This document shows, piece after piece, positions 1 through 59,670 of a stretch of DNA of 64,000 nucleotides (position 1 is the stretch's first letter; each line of letters begins with the position of its first letter). The notes beneath the pieces are model-generated. The model ran no database searches, was not told the origin of the DNA, and saw nothing but the letters and a program-made list of their open reading frames with translations. The position numbers and the translations under genes were made by a program. The stretch spans positions 13,024,501 through 13,088,500 of the forward strand of contig OX485808.1 in NCBI GenBank assembly GCA_950295325.1. Reading direction: 5' to 3'. Source of the DNA: Polytrichum commune. Lineage: Eukaryota; Streptophyta; Polytrichopsida; Polytrichales; Polytrichaceae.

Positions 1-2731
1 GGGATCATGGAGGTGGCCATATAGCTTTGCGCACCGTTACTAGCTAGGTGGTCTTTGATCTAGCATGGGTCTAGTACCCAACTATGTTGTGTTGGTTCTA
101 GGTAATGAAGGTGGGGATCCTCATCATATCCAAGGTTGTCATACACGGGGCCTATATATTGGTTTAAGGAAGCTAGTGGTTTTGACTTTGAATGTCATCA
201 AATATCTAATTGAGGCTAAAAATATTTTCTCTTTCTTTAGATCTATGTTTAGAACAAAGGCTACTATGAATAAATTTTGTTAATAGAAACCATGTAACCA
301 TATGTATGTATAATAGCTTAAAGTGTTGGTTTAAGCACCCTCTACCTTAGTTGCTCTCCAAATGTGTCATACATGATCATGAAATTTACCTCAAACATAA
401 AACCTTGTGCATTATCCATCTGGAAAATCCACAGTAAAGGCAAGAGCTTGTGTTCAACTAAGAGAGTATGTACTTGAGCCGGTACGTTGAAGTTGACCGT
501 CGACTTTGCATCAAACACTAAGTTAATGATCGTAGAAAACCATAGTTGTCAAACCTCCTTTCTCAAGTGTTGAAGAGAGGAGCATTGGCTACAATGATTG
601 GAGTGATGTAGCTACATATGGATGATTTTACCAATGTTCACTCAAATTATACACATTCATCTAAAAGTCGGCAATTTCATCTATTTTAGGGATTTTTTGG
701 GCTAATTCATCCACATAATTGCAATGAATATTCATAGAATATTCTTCTCTAAAATTTTAGTATCACAAATCAACAACACATAGCCATATTGAAAATGTGT
801 CGTCTACAAGGCACTATAGATTGAAAAGTCTGTAGATATTAAAATACGATAGATTTTGGAGTGATTGATATGCGAATTAAATATAATTAATAGTTTTAGG
901 TATTTTAACAATGAAAATACCAATATGATGTTCGGTATTATGGCCTTAATCATGTAGGACTATCGTGTACCAACTAGTTTGAGCTTTCATTCGATGAATA
1001 TTTTTAGTAGATTGAATGAGTATATTGATATTCACATTCATCTGCAAATCAAATTACTAATTGTGTTTATCAATTATATTTTAGTAAACTAAATATTATT
1101 GATTATTTTTTATACATAATTTATTTGCCAATTTGTTCTTGAGGCAACCTATATCCCTAAACATTTTGAACATTTGGCTCCAACTCCCAATATTGAAGAA
1201 GCTAAGTCAACATGGAGTTGAAGACATAACTCACAAAAATTGCTAGCCTAAAGCTACATTCGTCGTAGTTACTAACCTTTCAGAGCCCCCATACTCTTTG
1301 TGAGTACAAAGGATGGTCAAATATGGATATACATTGACTATCACATGTTGAATCATGTCATATCAACCCTCAAATTTTCATTATAAACTGAAAAGTCTAT
1401 AGCTATGAAAATATGATAGATTTTAGAATATTTGGTATAGAAGAAATATAAATAATACTTTTAGGTATTTTAACAATGGAAATACTAATAGGATATTCAA
1501 TATTATCACCTTAATCATGTAAAACTATCGTATGTTAACTAGTTTGAGCTTTCATTAGATGCATACAATTAGTCAATAGAATTATTATATTAACCGTGTG
1601 TTCGAAAATACAATGGTTGATTGGAAGGCTGATTGGAACGGCCTAAGGTAGCCATTACTTTACAAACAATGAGAAACTTAGAACATAGAAGAATAATATA
1701 AATAATGCAAATGATGAGAGTTGATTGATAGTCTCACATAACCTTCTTATCTCCATTTTTTTCCACCTCACACCTCCCCCCCCCCCCCTTCTTTTTGGTC
1801 ATTCCCTCAAGTTTTTTTTTTCTCTTGGCCATCCTCCCCTCCCCCAAGTTGCTACACCGTTTTCTTTTTGGTATAGTGTGTGGAAACATTAAGATTTAAT
1901 TTAAAAACTTTGAAGGAGTATTAGCCTTGATATTGGCTTTCTAAAAAGCTAAGGCTCGTCTGAGTTGGAGTTCGTGTGTTGAAGTTATCCACTCCAATGT
2001 CCACCTAGACACTCCCAACACATAGTTGGAAAAAAACCCAGACCTATCATTCCCACACTATTATCCCCACTCGTTCCACCCCGACCAACTTTTCCTCATG
2101 ACCCCTTCCCATTATTTAAATTTCCACCTCAACAAAGCACATGTACAAAATAATATGTTTTTAAAGAAGACAACCAAACTTGAGTGGGATATAATTGAAT
2201 TTCCCCCCAAACACCAACACTCAACTTGCCCTCTCCCTACCATGATGCCAAAACATCCTTTGTGTGGAGTTTATGGCCTTACACAGAGCCACCACATTAC
2301 TCCACCCCGTCTCACAACCCACATCTTCATGGATAGCCCTGTCTCAATATATCTCCCAAGGAACTAACTATAAACACTCCCCCACAATTGACATACACCA
2401 CCTCGACAAAGTTTCCATGCACAACATCCTTAGACAAATACAACTTCACCCCCACCCAATGGGGTCATTTATTGGAGTGAGTGTTGGTGGATGAGTGGTG
2501 GGAGGTGGGGTGGTTTCTCGGGGGGGGGGTAGTCATTGGTTGGAGTAGCAATATACGTGCGAACAAATGATAGGGTATTTTAAAAACATGGGGACTAAAA
2601 ATTATAATTGGACTTAAGAGTAATATAGGGTATCAAAAATGGCACTGGACATCTTTAAAGTACTATAGGGTATGGAATAATAGGTAATTTGGAATTATAA
2701 GTAATGCAAGCCATTTTTCTATTAACCCAAA
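1..2731. other. Intergenic, AT-rich; no gene seen
   Basis: The only open frames are short and have no recognisable motif. The stretch holds one diverged direct repeat (listed separately), a poly-C and poly-T tract near 1775-1830, and a poly-G run near 2521. The frame at 2026-2367 lies in a C-rich low-complexity stretch and looks non-coding. Confidence 0.6.
821..1592 (+). repeat. Diverged direct repeat pair (about 205 bp each)
   Basis: Positions 821-1033 and 1386-1592 align along their length. Shared blocks include GAAAAGTCT, TTTTAGGTATTTTAACAATG, CCTTAATCATGTA and ACTAGTTTGAGCTTTCATT. The copies lie about 350 bp apart in the same orientation and have drifted noticeably. No terminal inverted repeats or coding content are visible. 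This is either an old tandem duplication or two copies of one unknown repeat. Confidence 0.7.
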
Positions 2732-3478
2732 GGGGGCATTCACGGTTGGGGTACTACTTTTGGGACAAAGGACTTAAGGACTTTGTCGCATTGATCTTGG
2801 TTTTTATCATGATTTACTATTATTTGATCAATAAATTTTACATAAATAAGTAGATAGTTCATAAGCTTTATCAAGAAAGATTTTTATTATTATTCAATAA
2901 TCACCCTAAACCCTAGGCCACATCAGTGGCATTTTTTTGCTATTTAGGTGTGCATTGGTGGTCAATTATTTCCTGTTATGTATCTTGGTACATTGGTACA
3001 AGTGTCATGTGTCCATTCATATAAATTTTTTTGTCCAATTCTAATACTAGACGTTCCTTTTACGTGTGGCCGTGAGTATATGTATATTTGGACATGTTTG
3101 GTGCCACATGTAAAGTTGGGCAATTGCTATTCAATACATATTTGGTTCTATTGGTACACACTTGAATGATGAGTGTGAGGAAAAAATTTGGGATCATTTC
3201 GATTAATTCTTGTTGTCCTTTTCGTTCCTTGATCCTAAGGTCAGGAAGTAAGACAACACTCCTAAATGTCCTTTAAGGAATCAAATGGATATCATAGATG
3301 ACCCTATTCCTTCTAAATTAACTTTGTCGTTGTACTAAATATGGAGGATGAAATGTAGGTATGATCCAAAATATGCTCCACAATACAAATCCAATTATAC
3401 CAAGTATGTGAAGTTATCAAAAAAAGTCCTTAAACCGTTAGACACCCAAAAGTAGTACCCCAACCGTGAATGGCCCCC
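2732..3478. mobile_element. MITE-like element with long terminal inverted repeats
   Basis: The left end begins GGGGGCATTCACGGTTGGGG. The right end is its near-perfect reverse complement, and the similarity runs about 50-60 bp inward through TACTACTTTTGGG and GGACTT. The element is 747 bp and has no transposase frame. AAA flanks both ends, which could be a 3-bp target duplication but is too simple to prove it. The superfamily is uncertain. Confidence 0.75.
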
Positions 3479-6400
3479 AAAGTAGAAATTTACATAATGA
3501 TAGCATGTGGAAAAAAGAAGAGAATTGAAAGTAATACCCCCCTATAAAATAGTGGTTGTTCGCACCTATATCCTTAACTTTTTAACACACTGCCCCCCCC
3601 CCCCCCCCCGAGGGTGGTTTACTGGAGAAACTAGGAATGGTGTTGAGGATTTTGAGGGCTTCTTGAATGATAATAGGTGGGTGGGCTAGAAATTGTTTTT
3701 GGGTTTTTGTTTGGGAGGGTGTATGGTTGTTGGTTATTGTGTCACCCCAAAACCATCCTTCAATCTTGCCTAATATTTGAATGTTCACTCAACTCACATA
3801 ATATCCTCAATGTTGACCTAGTCAATTTCACCCTCATATAAATTTGAATGTTCTAGCCACAAAACGTTGCAAAGTAGTTGTATATCATCTACTACTCACA
3901 TATCAATTTTCATGACTAGAAAAGTAATGTACACTCATGGTGCAATATTTATTCAAACTAATATTTTCCCTCAACAAACCCTTAACAAAATGGTTGCATG
4001 AAGGTCAATATTTATTAATTTATAACACTTATGAAGTTGAAATTTCACAACAATTGAGAAAACAAATCTTCCAAGTTACCCTCCAAACCTCACATTCTTA
4101 GCTACAATAATTGTGGAGAACCAAGCCTTTAAAGTTGGGTTACTTAAATGCAATAGTTTTTAGACCATGTTTGCTTCAACGCTTCATTCCTCCTTCTCGA
4201 GCACAAATTACGCCCTCAAATTTTGCATACAAATGATGTACCCCACTAAGAACATTTTTCAAAATATTACAAGATACTTCTTTCATCATGCATATTAGGC
4301 CACAATTCAAGACCCAAATTTTGTCTTATTTATAAACCAAATGTAAAAGATAGCACACTTTGCCTAGTTCATATCCTCACTCCTCCAAGTAATCTCAACA
4401 TCTTTAATTTTTCTAATTCTTAAAAACACTCACTTTCTCAACCCCATAAGCTCTCTAAACACAAAACCCTTCAAACCCCTCAGGAATACCGACTTCCTAA
4501 TACCAACCACCCAAAATGCCTACAATAATGCCTCGCCACCCTTCTACTTCTTAAACCTCTTCACCTTTGTCCCCTTTAGCCAATAGGAAACCATTGGGTT
4601 TAGGGCATCAAGTAACCCTACGTGGCTAGGTAACGGCTGCCACCAGTAAACCATAACCTTCCCTTACCCTCAAGCCCTCCCTACCAAGCACTCCCGGTCT
4701 TCAATTCAAGACCGGTTCTCAACAAAACAACTAACTAGAACATGATTAATATAATATTATACTTAACATCTATCTACATGTGTACTTGGAGTAGCAATAA
4801 CACACGTAAATGCCTACGTTTTTAATACTAATTGGCCCACATCACGACATCATATTATTAAATGATCATCGCATCATGTCATTCGTAGATGTCAAGGCGA
4901 AGGAGGGTATTGAACATGCTAGTGACAAAGAGGAGGAGGAGGGAATGAAATACGACAAGGGTAGCTATGAAGCTTCTATGCATGGTTCCACATTGACTAC
5001 ATTGTATGTGCTCATTACTATATGGACATTGATATGGGTGAGTGAATTCCTATTGTACTTCCATCTATGTCCAAAAACTTTGATTTTAATTTTTTTTACA
5101 ATGCCTCCATCAATTTATTTTTCAAACATACATGAATTCTAGAAATATAGTCTAGAGCAAGCTCAATACTTGGAATGTGCTTGCAATTGTTTTTGGATGA
5201 ATGTTGACTCTAGCAATAATGTTAAAAAATCATCTCCAAACTCTTATACCAAGCTTGCGGTTGTTAATTTTAAAAATAAAGTAAGGCATTCATTAGGTAA
5301 TTTCATTTTGTGTGAACTTCCCACTCATATTATTATAAAAATGTTATTATTTATGCCAAAATACCATGGTTATAAGATACTAGTGGGTGTATTTCCAAAT
5401 TATTTGCCAACCTCACTGCTCACAAGTTACCGCTCACATGTTAGCACTCCCTATATTGAACATGGTATAGATTTTATCTTCAACATGAAGATCCTTTGAT
5501 GTTTCAAGAATGGATAAGTGCAAGTCTTGTATGATTTTGTTCTAATTTGAAACAAAATAAAGCTCTAAAGTCTTTTGAAGATTGTAGAAGGTTACTAAGA
5601 CTTGGAGTAGGAAGCAAATTGTCATACTCAAGGTTTTCACATTGCAAGGATAAAACTTCTTTAGTATTGCCAATGCACTTCACTTTAAATCATTAATGTT
5701 TCAAAATTGTAGTTCAAGTTCATTGTGAGAAACCCTCATCATCCGGTCAATGAACTTTGACCACCTCTAAAAATATATACATATGAACTCCAAATTCAAA
5801 ATTTTAGTTCTCATATACATGTATTCTAACTATATACAAAAAAGATGAACTTCCTCATGCATCCCATCATCCAAATTTAGAAAGAACAAGATTTAAGATG
5901 ATATTACGAATGAAGATATCAAACCATATATAAGTCATGACAAGTTTGACTATATGAAAATAGGTAATTGCCTCTAAGAGTCAATTATGTTGAATTATGT
6001 TAGTGGGATCTCTTGACTCCTTGTCTTTTATTTTATTATGTTGTAAATTGATCTAGCCTTGTCATAGCCCAAATGTACCTATATCTAGACAATTGAGAAC
6101 TACTTAAAAATATTTCATTTGAAATCTAGGGAAAGAGGTCATGGCATTGGAGAAACCAAATGGATCAAAGATAGTATTTTTTTATTTTATTTTTTATTTG
6201 ACACGTGTTCAACAAATGGGAAAAAAAAATATTGCTTAGGAAGAAAGTAGGTAACAAACAACCATCTAAGGGGTTGATCCCAACACCGGGATCCCAAGAA
6301 GGCTAAGTGATAATGCCCATACAAAGACTCTTCTCATGCTAGAGGAGGTTAATGACCATGTTTGAGCAATCTATTTGGAAATACATCAAATGGCATCATA

Positions 6401-8806: not shown

Positions 8807-10567
8807 AAGTCGTTTCTAGTGTGGTTCAAGGGGTAATGGTGGTGTGAGAGTGTGGAGACTGGGACCCCAAATCCACCATCTATCGAGTTGCACTACTAGA
8901 AAAATGACCCCATAGCATCAACCATGACATTGCTATGAACATCGGCTATGCTCCAACTTGGATATCATTTTGCCAATGTTGTAATGCGTGTTATTTTTGA
9001 CAAGTTGAGTAGTTTACGTCGCAGACTCCCTCCCTGTGAATGCTTTGGAGGTTATTGAAGAGTATGAGAACGGAAGCGTTTGGTTTACTGGCGCTAACGT
9101 TGTCAAGTAGAGAGAAGTTTGCTATGAAAAAACATAGAGTTTCTAGCTACAACTAGCGTAAGCCCAAGGATGGAGAAAAATCTAAATTCAAAACCCAAAA
9201 CTCTAGAAGAAAACACGAGGGAGAAAGAATGAGAGAGCAAGAGAAAAACGTTTGGAGAAGAAGACTTCCCCCCTTTATATATCAACTCACACTTTTCACA
9301 ACTAGGCGATCCATATCACCCCACCATAATCTCTATCCACTCACTAACTTTAGAGAAATATCTAACTTTTGACAACCAACTTTAAGTAACTTATTATATT
9401 TAGACAATAAACTTTAGATAACTCACTGTCTTTAGACAACTAGGTGACCACTCCTAACCTTTTTTTCTTTTTTTTTTCCTTCCCATGAAATTCAATGAAA
9501 ACAAATCAAAATAACAAAACCAATTTTTTATTTTTTTTACATTGTATAAGAATTTGCCTCAGGACACCGTAGAGATTTTGAAAGAATATGTCTCTTCTCT
9601 TATTTTATCGTGAGTGCGTTGAATCGTTGGGAGCAAAGGTATTTTATTTGATTTCCTCGAGACCTTTGGTGGTGAGGTCCAAAGTTTCTCATTAGTGTGT
9701 CGTCATTGCCTAAAGCTTAATGAATTGTCCGAGATGTTTGTCTTAGTTATATATAATTTGCAAGTTGTGGATCAACACCTTTACTCTTATAAGAATGTAT
9801 GCCTTAATGTTCGAAGCCCAATGTGAATAAATTTTGGTTACCATTCTACTAATTATGAGATGTAGCATAGAGTTGCTCTGTTGGCTGATTCAAATTAAGA
9901 ATGAGTATTTGCAAATATCTCTAGTAGATTGTTATCTTCATTAATTATTTTAAAAATGACATGACTTTTCTTGGCATGAGATTGAGTGTTCGACTTAAGT
10001 TTGGATCTTTATACGAATGGTGGGTTTGTGTTTCTCAGTACTTTTGATTAGTAATATCGATTATAGCAAATTATGATTTAGGTGCATGTGAAGATCAACA
10101 TTGTTTGTATTGGTATCAACGAATGATTTTTGTCATGTTGGTGGATTGTCTACCGGTAATGTATTGCCATTAAATATTGCCATGAAATGTGTGCCTAGTG
10201 CATCGTTCATTAGAGAGTTTAATGATGTTGATCTAGTCTTTATTGGTTCGATCTGATTTAGTGGGAATTTTGTTGTTGCAATTTGATCTTAAAGATCTTT
10301 TTAATATTCGATTGATCGCGATAAATTTGTCTATCGGTATTGTTTTTGCAAGTAACCAACATTAGCTTGTTAGATTTTCCAAGCAAGTACTAGCAAATGA
10401 GAAGGGATTTGTTAATCCTATTGTATTCTCATACTCTACATGAAAGTTCCATGCCACTTTCATTAAACTTGAGGTAATACGAAGAGAGAAAACTACCGTA
10501 GTTTGTTATTGGTCTAATTCCAAGCTGAGTGCCTAAGATAATGTAATTGGCAGTTTCACAGGTTGTA
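8807..10567. other. Upstream region of the NLR gene
   Basis: No coding sequence is recognised. The last part is probably a 5' UTR intron of the receptor, because a good 3' splice site ends at 10561. Positions 9360-9440 contain a short repetitive run of TTTAGA-CAA-type motifs. I could not identify a TATA box or transcription start with confidence. Confidence 0.45.
10546..10561 (+). promoter_or_regulatory. Candidate 3' splice site just before the NLR start codon
   Basis: The sequence TTGGCAGTTTCACAG is followed by GTTGTAATGGCG. The AG at 10560-10561 is preceded by pyrimidines and by a branch-point-like TCTAAT about 50 bases upstream. If used, it removes the ATG at 10547 from the mRNA and leaves the ATG at 10568 as the first start. 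This supports the shorter protein. Confidence 0.5.
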
Positions 10568-13500
10568 ATGGCGGATCCAATCGTTCCTGCAATAATAGGA
10601 TATGCGGTGAGTAAATTGTTCGATGGGGTATTTAATGCTGCTGGTGATGCAATCCAGTGTAAGGAAGAATGCAAGACTCTCCAGGCCAGTTTGGAGATAA
10701 TTAAACCACTACTTATGAGTGCGTGTGAACATTCAAACAATGGGAACGCTACGTGTACTTCATGGTTGACAAAATTCCGTTCCCTTTTGAAAGACGCGGA
10801 GGATGTAACAAATCAATGTCTACAAGAATCTAAACGTGAGAAGTTGAAGAGGGCGTTGCAATTTTGGCGTTGGAAGGAGTTGCCAGGTCGTGTGAAGAGT
10901 ATTGATCAACGAGTTAAAGAGCAAATTGCAAATACAAGTGTGGTCACGCTCGGGATTCTTCTAGCCATGAACAGCCCCACCGCAAGAGAGCAGATAGATT
11001 TTGAACCGCAACAAATACCACCAAATGTCGTGGGGCACGAGGAACACTTCAACAAACTCAAAGCATCTATACTTCAAAGTCGTGCAAAATCCGAGCATAG
11101 CTACCTTGGTGTGTATGGAAGAGGGGGAGCGGGGAAAACTGTGCTTGCAAAGAGGTTGCACAATGATGAAGAAATCAAAGCAACTTATGGAAAGCATTCT
11201 ATCGTGTGGATAACTGTTGGATGTGATGCAAAAGTATCTCAGCTCTATGAGAGAATGGCATCTCTTTTGAATGATGATGTATACAAGGATAAGTTTGCCA
11301 CTCAATGCCTGGAAGATCAACGTACTCACTTGTGCAATGTACTTGCCAAGAAGGAGGTTTTGTTGATTTTGGATGATGTGTGGAAGAAACAATATGATCA
11401 ACATGATATGATGTATTGGTTGGATATTGCAACTGCTCCTAATTCTGCAACATTGATAACTACGAGAGATTCTTCAATTTTGACTAAAGTTCATGCAGAA
11501 GTGGTAGGCGTTCTTCAGCTTCCTGAAGATGAGAGTTGGGAATTGTTTTGCAGCTATGCTTTTTACAATGGTTGTCGCCCATCAATTATTTCGGAGCAAT
11601 TAGCGAGAGATGTTTGTAAGGAATGTGGAGGTCTTCCCTTGGCTTTGACAGTGATTGGTAGTGCAATGTTGGAGAAGGTAGATGAACAGGGATGGAGGTG
11701 TGCTTTGGATTATTTGAAGCAATCAAAACCAATTCCAGATTCTGAGGTGGATGATAAATTGTTTGGGCGTCTACAGCTGAGTTACAATGAGTTAAAGGAT
11801 GACAAAACAAAGATATGTTTCTTGTATTTTGCAGCATTTCCAGAGGACTATGAAATTTTGACTGATCAGTTAATCAAAATTTGGACAGCAGAAGGATTAT
11901 TTGGTACGCTTGATGTTACAGATGCCAAAGACAAGGCAATGGAACATTTGGAAATTCTTGTGAAGAGGTCGTTGATAGGATGGACTTCTGAGGAACATGA
12001 TCATGTCCAAATACACGACATTCTTCGAGATGTAGCAATGTACATTATAGAGAAAGCCGAACCAGGGGAATGTGCCTTTGAATGCTACTTTCAAGTTGGG
12101 AAAGAATTCAAATCATTTCCATCAGTACAATCACTCCAACATGTGAAGAGGATGTCATTCATGCAAAGTATCATCTTTGAATGGCCAAAAGAACTTCATC
12201 TTCCACATCTTCGAGTGTGCTTACTTTCTCAAGCATCTATTGGCCAACAACCATTGGGAATTCCATTGCACTTATTCTCTTCCATGCACAGTTTGCAATA
12301 TCTAGACCTTGCTCGAAATACATTCCAGATCGGAGAAGAAATTCTAGATTTCAAAGGATTGATGAACCTTGCATATTTGGACCTATCACAGTGTTCAAAT
12401 CTAGAAAACTTTCTAGTAAACATTGGCAAGCTGCAGTGTCTTACAATTTTGAACCTACAAGAGTGTGAATCCTTGGAGGAGCTTCCTGTGAGCATCGGCA
12501 AATTGAATTGTCTTACCCACTTAAATCTACAAGGGTGTGAATCCTTGAAAGAGCTTCCTATGAGCATCGGCGAGGTGAAATGTCTTACTCACTTGAATCT
12601 ACAAGGGTGTAAATCCTTGAAGGAGCTTCCTATAAGCATCGGCAAGTTGAAGTGTCTTACCCACTTGAATTTACAAGGGTGTGCATCCTTGAAAGAGCTT
12701 CCTATGAGCATTGGCAAGTTAGAGTGTCTTACCCATTTGGACTTAGGAGGAAGTGAATCCTTGAAGGAGCTTCATGTGAGCATCGGCAAGTTAAAGTGTC
12801 TTACCCATTTGGACCTACAAGGGTGTGAATCCTTGGAAGAGCTTCCTGTGAGCATCGGCGAGTTAAAGTGTCTTACCCATTTGGACCTACAAGGGTGTGA
12901 ATCCTTGGAAGAGCTTCCTGTGAGCATCGGCGAGTTAGAGTGTCTTACCCACTTGAATCTACAAGGGTGTGAATCCTTGAAAGAGCTTCCTGTGAGCATT
13001 GTCGAGGTGAAGTGTCTTACTCACTTGAATCTACAAGGGTGTAAATCCTTGAAGGAGCTTCCTGTAAGCATCGGCAAGTTGAAGTGTCTTATCGATTTGA
13101 ACCTACGAGGGTGTGAATCCTTCAAGGAGTTTCCTATGAGCACCGGCGAGTTAGAGTGTCTTACCCATTTGGCCATGGGAAGGTGTGAATCTTTGAAGGA
13201 ACTACCTGTGAGCATTGGCGAGTTAAAGTGTCTTACCCATTTGGATCTACAAGATTGTGAATCCTTGGAAGAGCTTCCTATGAGCATCGGCAAGTTGAAG
13301 TGTCTTACTCACTTGAATCTACAAGGGTGTAAATCCTTGAAAGAGCTTCCTATGAGCATTGTCAAGGTGAAGTGTCTTATGCACTTGAATCTACAAGGGT
13401 GTAAATCCTTGAAGGAGCTTCCTATGAGCATTGGCAAGTTGAAGTGTCTTACTCATTTGGACCTACAAGGGTGTGAATCCTTGATGGAGCTTCCTGAGAG

Positions 13501-14899
13501 CATTGGCGGGTTCAAGTGTCTTATCGATTTGAACCTACAAGGGTGTGAAGCCTTGAAGGAGCTTCCTGTGAGCATCCGCAAGTTGAGGTGTCTTACCCAC
13601 TTGAGTCTAGTAGGGTGTAAATCCTTGATGGAGCTTCCTGTGAGCATCGGCGAATTGAAGTGTCTTACCCATTTGGACCTACAAGGGTGTAAATCCTTGA
13701 TGGGGCTTCCTGTGAGCATTAGTAAGTTGAAGCGTCTTACCGATTTGGACCTATCTTGTTGTGAATCCTTGAAGGAGCTTCCTATAAGCATCGGCAAGTT
13801 GAAGTGTCTTACCCGTTTGAACCTACAAAGATGTGAATCCTTGATGAAGCTTCCTGTGAGCATCGGCAAGTTGAAGTGTCTTACTGATTTGGACCTACAA
13901 AGGTGTAAATCCTTGATGGAGCTTCCTGTGAGCATCGGCGAGTTGAAGTGTCTTACTGATTTGTACCTATCTTGGTGTGTATCCTTGAAGGAGCTTCCTG
14001 TAAGCATCGGCAAGTTGAAATGTCTTACCCGTTGGAATCTACAAAGGTGTAAATCCTTGAAGGAGCTTCCTGTAAGCATCGGCAAGTTGAAATGTCTTAC
14101 CCGTTGGAATCTACAAAGGTGTAAATCCTTGAAGGAGCTTCCTATGAGCATCGGCGAGTTGAAGTGTCTTACTCATTTGGACCTAGAAAGGTGTAAATCC
14201 TTGATGGAGCTTCCTGTGAGCATCGGCAAGTTGAAGTGTCTTATCTATTTGAACCTATCTTGGTGTGTATCCTTGAAGGAGCTTCCTCCGAGCATAGGAG
14301 AGTTGAAGTGTCTTACCCATTTGGACCTATTTTGGTGTGTATCCTTGAAGGAGCTTCCTGTGAGCATTGCCAAGTTGAAGTGTCTTACCTATTTGAATCT
14401 ACAAGGGTGTGAATCCTTGAAGGAGCTTCCTGTGAGCATCGGCGAGTTGAAATGTCTTACCAATTTGGACCTATCTTGGTGTGAATCCTTGAATGAGCTT
14501 CCTATGAGCATCGGCAAGTTGAAGTGTCTTACCCATTTGGACCTAAGAGGGTGTGAATCCTTGACGGAGCTTCCTGTGAGCATTGGCGAGTTGAGGTTTC
14601 TCACATTTTTGTACGTAGAATGGTGTAAATCCTTGAAGGAGCTTCCTGTGAGTATCGGCGAGTTGAATTGTCTTACCCACTTGAATCTACAAGGGTGTGA
14701 TTCCTTGAAAGAGTTTCTTGGAAGCATCGGCAAATTGAAGTGTTTTACCCATTTGGACTTAAGAGGGTGTGAATCCTTGAAGGAGCTTCCTATTAGCATC
14801 GGTGAGTTGAAGTCTCTTACTTATTTGGACCAATCCGGGTGTGAAACCTTGAATGATTCTGAGAGCATCGGCAACCTTAACAATCTTGAAATTGAGTGA
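10568..14899 (+). CDS. CC-NB-ARC-LRR immune receptor (NLR) with a giant 34-unit LRR array
   Basis: Intracellular plant immune receptor of the CNL class. NB-ARC switches from ADP to ATP on effector recognition, and the N-terminal helices then drive signalling. I chose the ATG at 10568 (protein MADPIVPAI..., 1443 aa) because an upstream in-frame ATG (10547) lies before a probable splice acceptor, and because MADPI resembles the MAEPL/MADA-type N-terminal helix. Numbered from 10547: coiled-coil about 8-130; P-loop GRGGAGKT 191-198; kinase-2 LLILDDVW 272-279; RNBS-B TLITTRD 302-308; GGLPLAL 361-367; RNBS-D CFLYFAAFPED 424-434; MHD motif present as IHD 489-491. LRRs run from about residue 575, with a strict 24-residue array from residue 626 to the C-terminus. 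All NB-ARC motifs are intact and the coding frame has no intron, so it is probably functional. No partner receptor gene lies in the window. The ligand is unknown. Confidence 0.95.
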   Translation: MADPIVPAIIGYAVSKLFDGVFNAAGDAIQCKEECKTLQASLEIIKPLLMSACEHSNNGNATCTSWLTKFRSLLKDAEDVTNQCLQESKREKLKRALQFWRWKELPGRVKSIDQRVKEQIANTSVVTLGILLAMNSPTAREQIDFEPQQIPPNVVGHEEHFNKLKASILQSRAKSEHSYLGVYGRGGAGKTVLAKRLHNDEEIKATYGKHSIVWITVGCDAKVSQLYERMASLLNDDVYKDKFATQCLEDQRTHLCNVLAKKEVLLILDDVWKKQYDQHDMMYWLDIATAPNSATLITTRDSSILTKVHAEVVGVLQLPEDESWELFCSYAFYNGCRPSIISEQLARDVCKECGGLPLALTVIGSAMLEKVDEQGWRCALDYLKQSKPIPDSEVDDKLFGRLQLSYNELKDDKTKICFLYFAAFPEDYEILTDQLIKIWTAEGLFGTLDVTDAKDKAMEHLEILVKRSLIGWTSEEHDHVQIHDILRDVAMYIIEKAEPGECAFECYFQVGKEFKSFPSVQSLQHVKRMSFMQSIIFEWPKELHLPHLRVCLLSQASIGQQPLGIPLHLFSSMHSLQYLDLARNTFQIGEEILDFKGLMNLAYLDLSQCSNLENFLVNIGKLQCLTILNLQECESLEELPVSIGKLNCLTHLNLQGCESLKELPMSIGEVKCLTHLNLQGCKSLKELPISIGKLKCLTHLNLQGCASLKELPMSIGKLECLTHLDLGGSESLKELHVSIGKLKCLTHLDLQGCESLEELPVSIGELKCLTHLDLQGCESLEELPVSIGELECLTHLNLQGCESLKELPVSIVEVKCLTHLNLQGCKSLKELPVSIGKLKCLIDLNLRGCESFKEFPMSTGELECLTHLAMGRCESLKELPVSIGELKCLTHLDLQDCESLEELPMSIGKLKCLTHLNLQGCKSLKELPMSIVKVKCLMHLNLQGCKSLKELPMSIGKLKCLTHLDLQGCESLMELPESIGGFKCLIDLNLQGCEALKELPVSIRKLRCLTHLSLVGCKSLMELPVSIGELKCLTHLDLQGCKSLMGLPVSISKLKRLTDLDLSCCESLKELPISIGKLKCLTRLNLQRCESLMKLPVSIGKLKCLTDLDLQRCKSLMELPVSIGELKCLTDLYLSWCVSLKELPVSIGKLKCLTRWNLQRCKSLKELPVSIGKLKCLTRWNLQRCKSLKELPMSIGELKCLTHLDLERCKSLMELPVSIGKLKCLIYLNLSWCVSLKELPPSIGELKCLTHLDLFWCVSLKELPVSIAKLKCLTYLNLQGCESLKELPVSIGELKCLTNLDLSWCESLNELPMSIGKLKCLTHLDLRGCESLTELPVSIGELRFLTFLYVEWCKSLKELPVSIGELNCLTHLNLQGCDSLKEFLGSIGKLKCFTHLDLRGCESLKELPISIGELKSLTYLDQSGCETLNDSESIGNLNNLEIE
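12422..14866 (+). repeat. In-frame 72-bp LRR array (33 x 72 bp plus one 69-bp unit)
   Basis: Each unit encodes about IGKLKCLTHLDLQGCESLKELPVS. This corresponds to a plant-type LRR in which the L-x-x-L-x-L core is CLTHLDL, followed by Gx-C-x-S-L-x-E-L-P. Thirty-three consecutive units have exactly 24 codons. The 34th has 23 (residues LNDSES replace the usual ELPVS end), and a 10-residue cap follows. Units 6 and 7 (12782-12925) differ at one base. Units 23 and 24 (14006-14149) are almost identical and share a rare Trp in place of the core Leu. EV-K-C type units at positions 3, 9 and 14 suggest duplication of multi-unit blocks. The open frames on the opposite strand are a by-product of this repetition. 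Confidence 0.95.
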
Positions 14900-45777: not shown

Positions 45778-46403
45778 AATGAATGATCGGGGAGAACGAG
45801 CCACTACACTAATTCTCCCCATTAGTGTGTATTACTTGTCGGAGTTTACACATTGCTATAACTATTTATTGAGAACATAATATTCTACCAAGCAAAGTCA
45901 TCTATGTTCTACAAATGTCTGAACACCCTATTGAACTTTCGAAGCTAAAAATTGAACTCCCAAGTAAGAGGTAATTGCACCACGTAACTCCGAATAGTAG
46001 TAGCACGCACTAGTCGGGATAATCAGTGTAGTTACAAATGAACTATTTGAGTTCGAAAACCAAGCGGTTGGAATTCAATACTTCGGGGAATCTACCAATC
46101 ATTCTAAATGAATCTATGCAACACCCCTCATTTTGGTAAAGAAAAACCTCGAAAGATCACAACGTGTAACCAGTTGGACAATCCTTCTAAAGGAATCTAT
46201 GCATACCCCATTTTGGTATATAAAAAAACCGAAAGATCACAACATAGAAAAGGTTGGACAATCATTCCAATGGAATCTATGCAATATACCCCATTTTTTG
46301 GTAAAGAAAAACCCTAAAAGATCTCACAACGTGGAACTAGTTGGACTTGGAGACAACTAGGGTTTTGACCGATCGCGCCCAAAAATCTCCTCGGACGCCG
46401 GTG
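45778..46403 (+). mobile_element. hAT-type MITE family, copy 3, with nested MITE and internal triplication
   Basis: Starts CAATGAATGATCGGGGAGAA directly after copy 2 and ends near GCCCAAAAATCTCCTCGG. A TA-flanked MITE (45807-46028) is inserted near the left end. Further in, a unit of about 80 bp beginning GAATCTATGCA is repeated three times (starts 46110, 46193, 46273), which expands the element beyond the 226 bp of the simple copy at 56458-56683. Confidence 0.7.
45807..46028. mobile_element. TA-flanked MITE nested in hAT-type MITE copy 3
   Basis: Ends CACTAATTCTCCCCATTAGT and inverse of CACTGATTATCCCGACTAGT; 222 bp; TA on both sides. Copies of the host repeat at 45470 and 56650 lack it and have a single TA at this position (GCTAGTTAC and the inverse of GTTAGTTAC), which supports a TA target duplication. 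Confidence 0.82.
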
Positions 46404-59121: not shown

Positions 59122-59670
59122 GCTCTAGCAGACTAAGTGTCTCTTGTTGTTGTAGAACCAAGTAGCTTTAGTAGGCTAAGTAGTTCTTTGTTGTTGTAGA
59201 CCAAATAGCTCGCTAAGTGTCTCTTGTTGTTGTAGAACCAAGTAGCTTCAGTAGGCTAAGTAGTTCTTTGTTGTTGTAGACCAAATAGCTCTAGTAGGCT
59301 AAGTATCTCTTTGTTGTTGTCAAACCACGTAGCTATAGTAGACTAAGTGTCTCTTTGTTGTTGTCAAACCCAGTAGCTATAGTAGACTAAGTATCTCTTT
59401 GTTGTCGTTGTAGAACCAAGTAGCTCTAGTAGACTAAGGCTCTTGTTGTTGAAGAACCAAGTATCTCTAGTAGGCTAAGTATCCAAGTAAGCCTTTTGAG
59501 TAGCTATTTTGCAAGTAACAAAATAATCAAGTAGTCAAATAGCCAAGTAAGCAAGTAATCCTTTGAGTAACTCTTTTACATGTAACCAAATAACCAAGTA
59601 ACCAAGTAGCCAAGTAACCGAGTAATCCTTTTGAGTAACTCTTTTATAAGTAACCAAGTACCTCAATGAT
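59122..59670 (+). repeat. Minisatellite: about 44-bp units, then AAGTANCC-rich units
   Basis: From 59122 to about 59484 a unit of the form TAGTAGGCTAAGTATCTCTT plus TGTTGTTGTAGAACCAAGTAGCTC repeats about eight times. TAGCT marks occur at 59163, 59206, 59243, 59286, 59330, 59374 and 59420, a spacing of 37-46 bp. From about 59485 to 59670 a second pattern follows, built from AAGTAACCAAGTAGCC-like pieces and CTTTTGAGTAACTCTTTTA. It starts exactly where the LINE reverse transcriptase stops being readable. Confidence 0.88.

Follow-up and report, generated by a model that had tools for sequence, protein, structure and literature searches.

A 34-unit LRR array in a complete CC-type NLR gene of Polytrichum commune, with related arrays that differ in length and unit order

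The diversification of plant NLRs is commonly attributed to point change, gene conversion, and the birth and death of genes. One locus of Polytrichum commune raises the question of whether the sensor of such a receptor can also be built, and rebuilt, from a single repeating unit. It lies in a 64,000-nucleotide stretch of contig OX485808.1, hereafter the window, within a genome assembly of 407.8 Mb in 64 contigs, seven of which are probably chromosome-sized, to judge by the lengths of five and by match positions on C1 and C3. A preliminary description, made from the letters of the window alone, had reported a homogeneous 34-unit LRR array in an intact NLR and had proposed that such an array could change in length and act as a fast-evolving recognition surface.

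The plus strand is free of stops from 10547 to 14899, and the first ATG of this frame, at 10568, opens a product of 1443 aa (the window gene, W; Table 1). Its N-terminus, MADPIVPAIIGYAVSKLFDGVF, matches Rx_N in Pfam (E 2.2e-7; 31.3 bits against a cut-off of 27.7) and, below the cut-off of 30.4, RPW8 (E 9.2e-6; 25.8 bits). Neither a TIR nor a kinase domain was found in the protein among the 16 Pfam families. NB-ARC motifs, an Rx_N N-terminus, a C-terminal LRR region and the absence of domain-boundary introns place W with the CNL class; the N-terminal protein kinase that marks the PNL class is absent by Pfam. Comparison with solved structures (best 60 of 137 matched sequences) gave the top scores to RPP1 and Roq1, by way of the LRRs. 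In the same set, most of the CC-NB-ARC part matched NRC2, NRC3 and RPP13-like protein 4, which we take to be ZAR1, and the NB-ARC matched an RPW8-domain protein and At5g04720, presumably an ADR1-like protein. Judged by its predicted domains, the window gene is a complete CC-type NLR.

Six bases 5' of the ATG of W there is a splice-acceptor-like CAG (window 10550-10570), and the translations of several relatives have a glutamine codon immediately before the first methionine in the open frame. A leader intron at the 5' end is possible.

Table 1 Features of the window gene (positions in the window)
Feature	Position	Strand	Basis
1443-aa CC-NB-ARC-LRR (CNL-type) immune receptor gene, single open frame	10568..14899	+	Stop-free translation, Pfam
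Helical domain at the N-terminus, Rx_N-like and weakly RPW8-like, aa 10-99	10595..10864	+	Pfam
NB-ARC domain, aa 159-407	11042..11788	+	Pfam E 2e-40
P-loop	11117-11140		Motif name presumed
Kinase-2, LLILDDVW	11360-11383		Motif name presumed
RNBS-B	11459-11476		Motif name presumed
GLPL	11630-11644		Motif name presumed
RNBS-D-like, CFLYFAAFPED	11816-11848		Motif name presumed
Winged-helix domain, aa 424-490	11837..12037	+	Pfam WH_DRP E 2.1e-11
MHD-like, VQIHD	12005-12019		Motif name presumed
Irregular LRRs preceding the array, limits approximate	12185..12430	+	Read from translation
LRR array, 34 units of which 33 measure exactly 72 bp; unit consensus LKCLTHLNLQGCESLKELPVSIGK	12431..14878	+	TRF, translation, unit comparison
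Units 6 and 7, 100% identical 72-bp neighbours; 77-bp exact repeat starting at 12789/12861	12791..12934	+	
Units 23 and 24, 95.8% identical; 91-bp exact in-register repeat starting at 13981/14053	14015..14158	+	
Degenerate unit 34 and C-terminus (..SIGNLNNLEIE stop)	14807..14899	+	Translation

TRF reported the array at 12421-14874 (period 72, 34.1 copies, 83% matches, 0 indels) with a score of 2983, the next-best score in the window being 414. Cutting at LxxL from 12431 yields 34 units, and the claimed run of 33 consecutive LRRs of exactly 24 codons was recovered as units 1-33, followed by the degenerate unit 34. Together with the open frame and the Pfam domains, the period of 72 bears out the description of a homogeneous array in an intact NLR. 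The accompanying phrase "mostly near-identical DNA" was too strong, because pairwise DNA identity among the 33 units averages 82.5% and ranges from 66.7 to 100%. Against their own consensus, the units agree in 89% of DNA bases and in 81% of amino-acid residues. Other tandem repeats occur in the window outside the gene, at 59122-59657 and 46096-46346 (periods 44/37/80, 67 and 80).

Single-unit duplication is visible within the array. The two neighbour pairs that had been taken for recent single-unit duplicates (units 6/7 and 23/24) hold up as such, and the array contains only two exact in-register repeats of at least 60 bp (91 and 77 bp), both between neighbours. Neighbouring units are slightly more alike than chance would make them (the observed value was reached in 13 of 400 shuffles), and no clear decay of unit similarity with distance was seen over lags 1-14. 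Recent block duplication, also proposed earlier, is not visible: the best non-overlapping blocks of 2, 3, 4, 5 and 6 units were equalled in 175, 42, 115, 79 and 72, respectively, of 400 shuffles of the unit order. Units 3, 9 and 14, said to have an EV-K-C variant in common, all carry V-K-C; the residue before it is E in unit 3 and unit 9, which are 97.2% identical to each other, and K in unit 14. Block duplication as the origin of these three units was rejected, as it does no better than shuffled order.

Arrays of this kind recur across the genome. A search with the CC-NB-ARC half (71 of 380 candidates scored) returned W itself, one place at 87% identity and nine at 38-39%; the following match was far weaker, at 103.6 bits vs at least 329.7 for the ten relatives. 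All ten hold 24-codon LRR chains, of 12 to 20 units, and in nine of them the array is homogeneous (mean DNA identity 0.72-0.84). The exception is L009, in which two kinds of unit alternate (mean 0.63). A five-unit protein query gave at least 192 genome matches with 150 of 3471 candidates scored. Ten loci were picked mostly for their long open frames and are no basis for genome-wide proportions. Three long-array genes among the loci were read whole, L013, L016 and L017, and these, the only genes in which a kinase domain was sought, encode kinase-NB-ARC-LRR proteins. Their single open frames have 3674, 2924 and 2806 codons and their unit chains span 108, 78 and 71 units, respectively; the choice of method shifts such counts by a few units at the edges, that for L013 being 108 by span, 107 by DNA scan and 109 by a looser chain. 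The 77 scored units of L016 comprise just 35 distinct sequences. Among the arrays read, that of the window is thus mid-range in length and homogeneity; with an array of about 108 units elsewhere in the genome, the view of it as exceptional is not supported.

Several of these loci have features of their own. L016 (G000:C4:11942831-11951602) has a mean DNA identity of 92% and 181 identical unit pairs. The 3674-codon single frame of the kinase-NB-ARC-LRR gene that carries about 108 LRR units lies at G000:C6:37264788-37275809 (L021/L013/L022). In L007, a near-copy of L004, an insertion of about 0.98 kb (L007:about 2322-3300) lies between the NB-ARC and LRR parts, and the array behind it is still open, with changed unit content. 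A fragment matching cytochrome P450 (L019:1495-2289) is situated downstream of the L007 gene.

The nearest paralogue of the window gene, L001, is 87% identical (Ks 0.144, Ka 0.067 over 621 codons) and has an array of 21 units vs 34 in W, ending in a similar kind of C-terminal end. A stop where unit 19 begins interrupts its frame and leaves three of the 21 units behind it. The order of units is mostly different in the two genes; their best ordered pairing was reached by 11 of 300 shuffles, weakly beyond chance. Using 15 of the 17 L001 units before the stop, unit identity was 0.807 between the genes and 0.793 within L001, as compared with 0.825 within W. Units are therefore about as alike between the genes as within L001, and gene-specific homogenisation is weak. 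With equal sampling, the best match fell in the own array for 78% of W units and 33% of L001 units. Strong gene-specific concerted evolution was accordingly rejected, being unsupported by the unit identities and asymmetric with equal sampling.

Closer copies allow length differences to be read directly. The NB-ARC stretches of five clustered genes, L011-L015, fall inside about 153 kb and are nearly invariant across all ten pairs (pS 0-0.005, pN 0-0.008); L011, L012, L014 and L015 are presumed to belong to the class of L013 because their NB-ARC DNA is nearly the same. The arrays of L011-L015 have 76, at least 84, 107, 63 and at least 57 units, the two lower bounds arising because the arrays of L012 and L015 reach the edge of the sequence analysed. 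All 107 L013 units occur exactly among the 63 of L014, with an exact run of 57, and within L013 a stretch of 3,201 bp recurs exactly, 44 units further on. L013 thus equals L014 plus one exact 44-unit (3.2 kb) block, for which one gain in L013 or one loss in L014 would be the simplest history, as far as the units tell. Ordinary slippage does not make steps as large as 3.2 kb, so that the route was more likely unequal exchange or conversion. L011 and L012 have 53 of 76 units in common, including an exact run of 31. The length change that the preliminary description anticipated is therefore supported, as a difference among related genes within a single genome rather than among individuals.

Two members of this cluster are interrupted. 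The LRR array of L012 is split by an insertion of about 1.94 kb (L012:about 4030-5990), in which no inverted repeats of at least 14 bp were found. In L015, a single 71-bp step among the 72-bp units (L015:3594) shifts the frame inside the array.

A second close pair, L005 and L006, lies 58 kb apart. Ahead of the array, 2,281 bp of the two align without gaps and with 5 mismatches; behind it, the alignment of 1,476 bp has 9 mismatches and 8 gap columns. Their internal units number 11 vs 17. Five of the 11 L005 units have an L006 partner at 97% or above: the first units of the two arrays pair with each other, as do the last ones, and three of the nine inner L005 units have a partner at that level. 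Further into the 3' flank, 3,556 of 3,557 positions are identical. The 5' flank is about 99% identical for about 2.2 kb and then drops to 84-96%, so that conversion of the gene body could explain part of the similarity.

These comparisons bear on whether the arrays change quickly at all. If gene conversion had homogenised the NB-ARC and flanks of old duplicates, the arrays could be old and different without having evolved fast. The loss of similarity about 2.2 kb upstream of the L005/L006 gene would fit such a history, as would the small number of exact units common to L011 and L013 (12 of 76) and to L011 and L015 (0 of 76) despite near-identical NB-ARCs; low sharing in these other cluster pairs is compatible with fast turnover and with older arrays joined to a converted NB-ARC. 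Conversion of old genes accounts poorly, however, for L013 and L014, whose arrays have all units exactly in common and are set apart by a single exact block of 44, a difference that needs a recent event in the array itself. Nor does it sit well with the exact 31-unit run in L011/L012 or with the near-perfect 3' flank of L005/L006. We regard old arrays behind converted NB-ARCs as an improbable explanation.

The same near-identity invites the suspicion that the assembler expanded or collapsed tandem units or near-identical gene copies. Assemblers can indeed err at sequence such as the exact 3.2-kb duplication in L013 or near-identical copies separated by about 38 kb. The window array, by contrast, is 2.4 kb long and anchored by variants, because its units average only 82.5% identity; length also differs between well diverged genes (W/L001, Ks 0.144), and uninterrupted frames span arrays that range from 34 to about 108 units. 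An origin of the length differences in assembly alone is thus highly improbable.

Selection on the units was computed for seven of 23 array rows, a non-random choice. The 24 unit positions were divided into framework (1, 4, 7, 9, 12, 15, 18, 19, 22), concave (5, 6, 8, 10, 11) and other positions, a division that follows the LRR motif. Pairwise pN/pS for framework, concave and other positions was 0.30, 0.53 and 0.61 in the window array; 0.28, 1.10 and 1.23 in L006; 0.36, 0.93 and 1.13 in L008; 0.33, 5.3 and 1.8 in L016; 0.26, 1.99 and 1.27 in L017; 0.22, 1.54 and 0.51 in L013; and 0.23, 1.39 and 0.58 in L011, with bootstrap ranges that are too narrow because co-duplicated units are not independent. 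Concave pN was 3.9 to 12.6 times framework pN across the seven. When each variant was counted once, a measure that saturates, concave ratios were 0.71 for the window, 3.5 for L006, 2.75 for L008, 0.88 for L016, 1.16 for L017, 0.90 for L013 and 0.86 for L011. Framework constraint is clear in all seven arrays, and diversifying selection is likely in some arrays other than that of the window. The window array shows no sign of positive selection at concave positions by either measure, and diversifying selection at its exposed positions is not supported.

Length might also drift without adaptive meaning, as a neutral by-product of 24-codon LRR DNA recombining out of register, with regular spacing persisting only since frame-breaking changes kill the protein. 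On this account one would readily understand why pN/pS above 1 is absent from the window array, why the unique-variant concave ratios are near 1 in five of seven arrays (0.71 to 1.16) and why broken copies exist (the stop in L001, the insertions in L007 and L012, the 71-bp step in L015). It is harder to reconcile with strong framework constraint in seven of seven arrays, with concave pairwise ratios of 5.3 in L016 and 2.0 in L017, and with unique-variant ratios of 3.5 in L006 and 2.75 in L008. We consider purely neutral drift unlikely, though far from negligible.

A single-sequence model of the window LRR region (mean pLDDT 64.7) has many strands recurring every 24 residues. Its best Foldseek matches are mostly LRR solenoids (plant receptor kinases, TLRs, SHOC2 and RPP1), with query-normalised TM-scores of 0.22-0.40 among the best 50 rows. 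Weakly but consistently, the model points to an LRR solenoid.

Taken together, we think it probable that the window gene is an intact CC-type NLR with a recombinationally elastic LRR recognition surface. Its C-terminal sensor would be a long LRR solenoid built of one repeating 72-bp unit. Misaligned recombination would add whole units and blocks to the array or take them out, either through gene conversion or through unequal crossing-over that involves sister chromatids, homologues or neighbouring copies. Because the units are alike and in frame, such events would leave the frame unbroken, and the window array may still be changing in length today. Purifying selection keeps the framework residues and the concave strand-face residues vary, so that each change in length would re-order the binding surface. 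That concave face may bind a pathogen or modified-self molecule, and the elasticity might then be useful to the plant. In CNLs, ligand binding frees the NB-ARC and the CC end signals. The CC and NB-ARC of the window protein would presumably signal as in other CC-NLRs once the sensor is bound.

More widely, though here we are tentative, it is possible that in a plant lineage a whole repertoire of CC- and kinase-NLRs carries LRR sensors made of recombination-driven, interchangeable 24-residue cassettes. Unit number and order would shift by tens per event, faster than point mutation elsewhere in the gene, and would generate receptor diversity at the population level much as fungal HIC repeats or lamprey VLR cassettes do, but inherited through the germ line. 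The NLR sensor here seems to be an elastic repeat array, and L011-L015 and L005/L006 form a natural series of receptors with nearly identical NB-ARCs and different sensor lengths, which makes the role of LRR number and order in recognition directly testable. The findings also suggest that short-read NLR catalogues of such plants are unreliable in array regions.

Among known systems, bryophyte CNLs are described as having no introns between domains (Xue 2012, PMC3352924). W resembles them in its CC-like N-terminus, NB-ARC and LRR region within one uninterrupted frame from CC to LRR, the comparison covering domains and introns. The LRRs of W are 34 in number and nearly uniform at 24 codons. The PNL class of Physcomitrella combines protein kinase, NBS and LRR with domain-boundary introns (PMC3352924); L013, L016 and L017 likewise carry kinase, NB-ARC and LRR but are open in one frame, and W lacks the kinase. 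Taken by itself, this kinase-NLR class would point to a bryophyte, probably a moss; a comparison of cellulose synthase with the PDB matched several cellulose synthase and CslF6 chains and did not place the plant. A CC-MAEPL subfamily with an N-terminal MAEPL motif has also been reported (PMC11218826). The number of LRRs in angiosperm R genes changes through recombination that is either illegitimate or unequal (Wicker 2007, cited in PMC6032283). The likeness is that intragenic recombination between LRR units would alter the size of the sensor. Cf-2/Cf-5, RPP5 and flax M are further angiosperm examples of such change in LRR number. To our knowledge, a single-block difference of 44 units and about 108 units in one frame exceed what those genes display. 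In hvNLRs, variation focuses on the LRR binding face. Arabidopsis hvNLRs generate recognition diversity within the NLR family (PMC8226289), whereas in the NLRs analysed here unit number and order change as well. Among the titles and abstract openings listed from an open-licence library, none describes long homogeneous LRR arrays in plant NLRs.

A parallel is found in fungi. In the HIC-repeat NLRs exemplified by Podospora HET-D/HET-E, the sensor repeats are very alike, their number varies and particular positions vary most (PMC12222747, PMC4986451). HIC repeats are defined by more than 85% identity over at least 100 aa (PMC4986451). By our own measure, which differs from the program of that study, the window array falls below this cut-off at 0.81 to its protein consensus, L014, L018 and L020 reach 0.83-0.84, and L011, L012, L013, L016 and L017 reach 0.85-0.87. 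As for selection at repeat positions, concave pN/pS is 0.53 in the window and 0.93-5.3 in the six other arrays (0.71-3.5 by unique variants), and differences in repeat number were found between paralogues only. The fungal sensors consist of WD40, ANK or TPR repeats and those described here of LRRs on a plant NB-ARC; common to both is a C-terminal NLR sensor of alike repeats, which in W and its paralogues differ in number from gene to gene.
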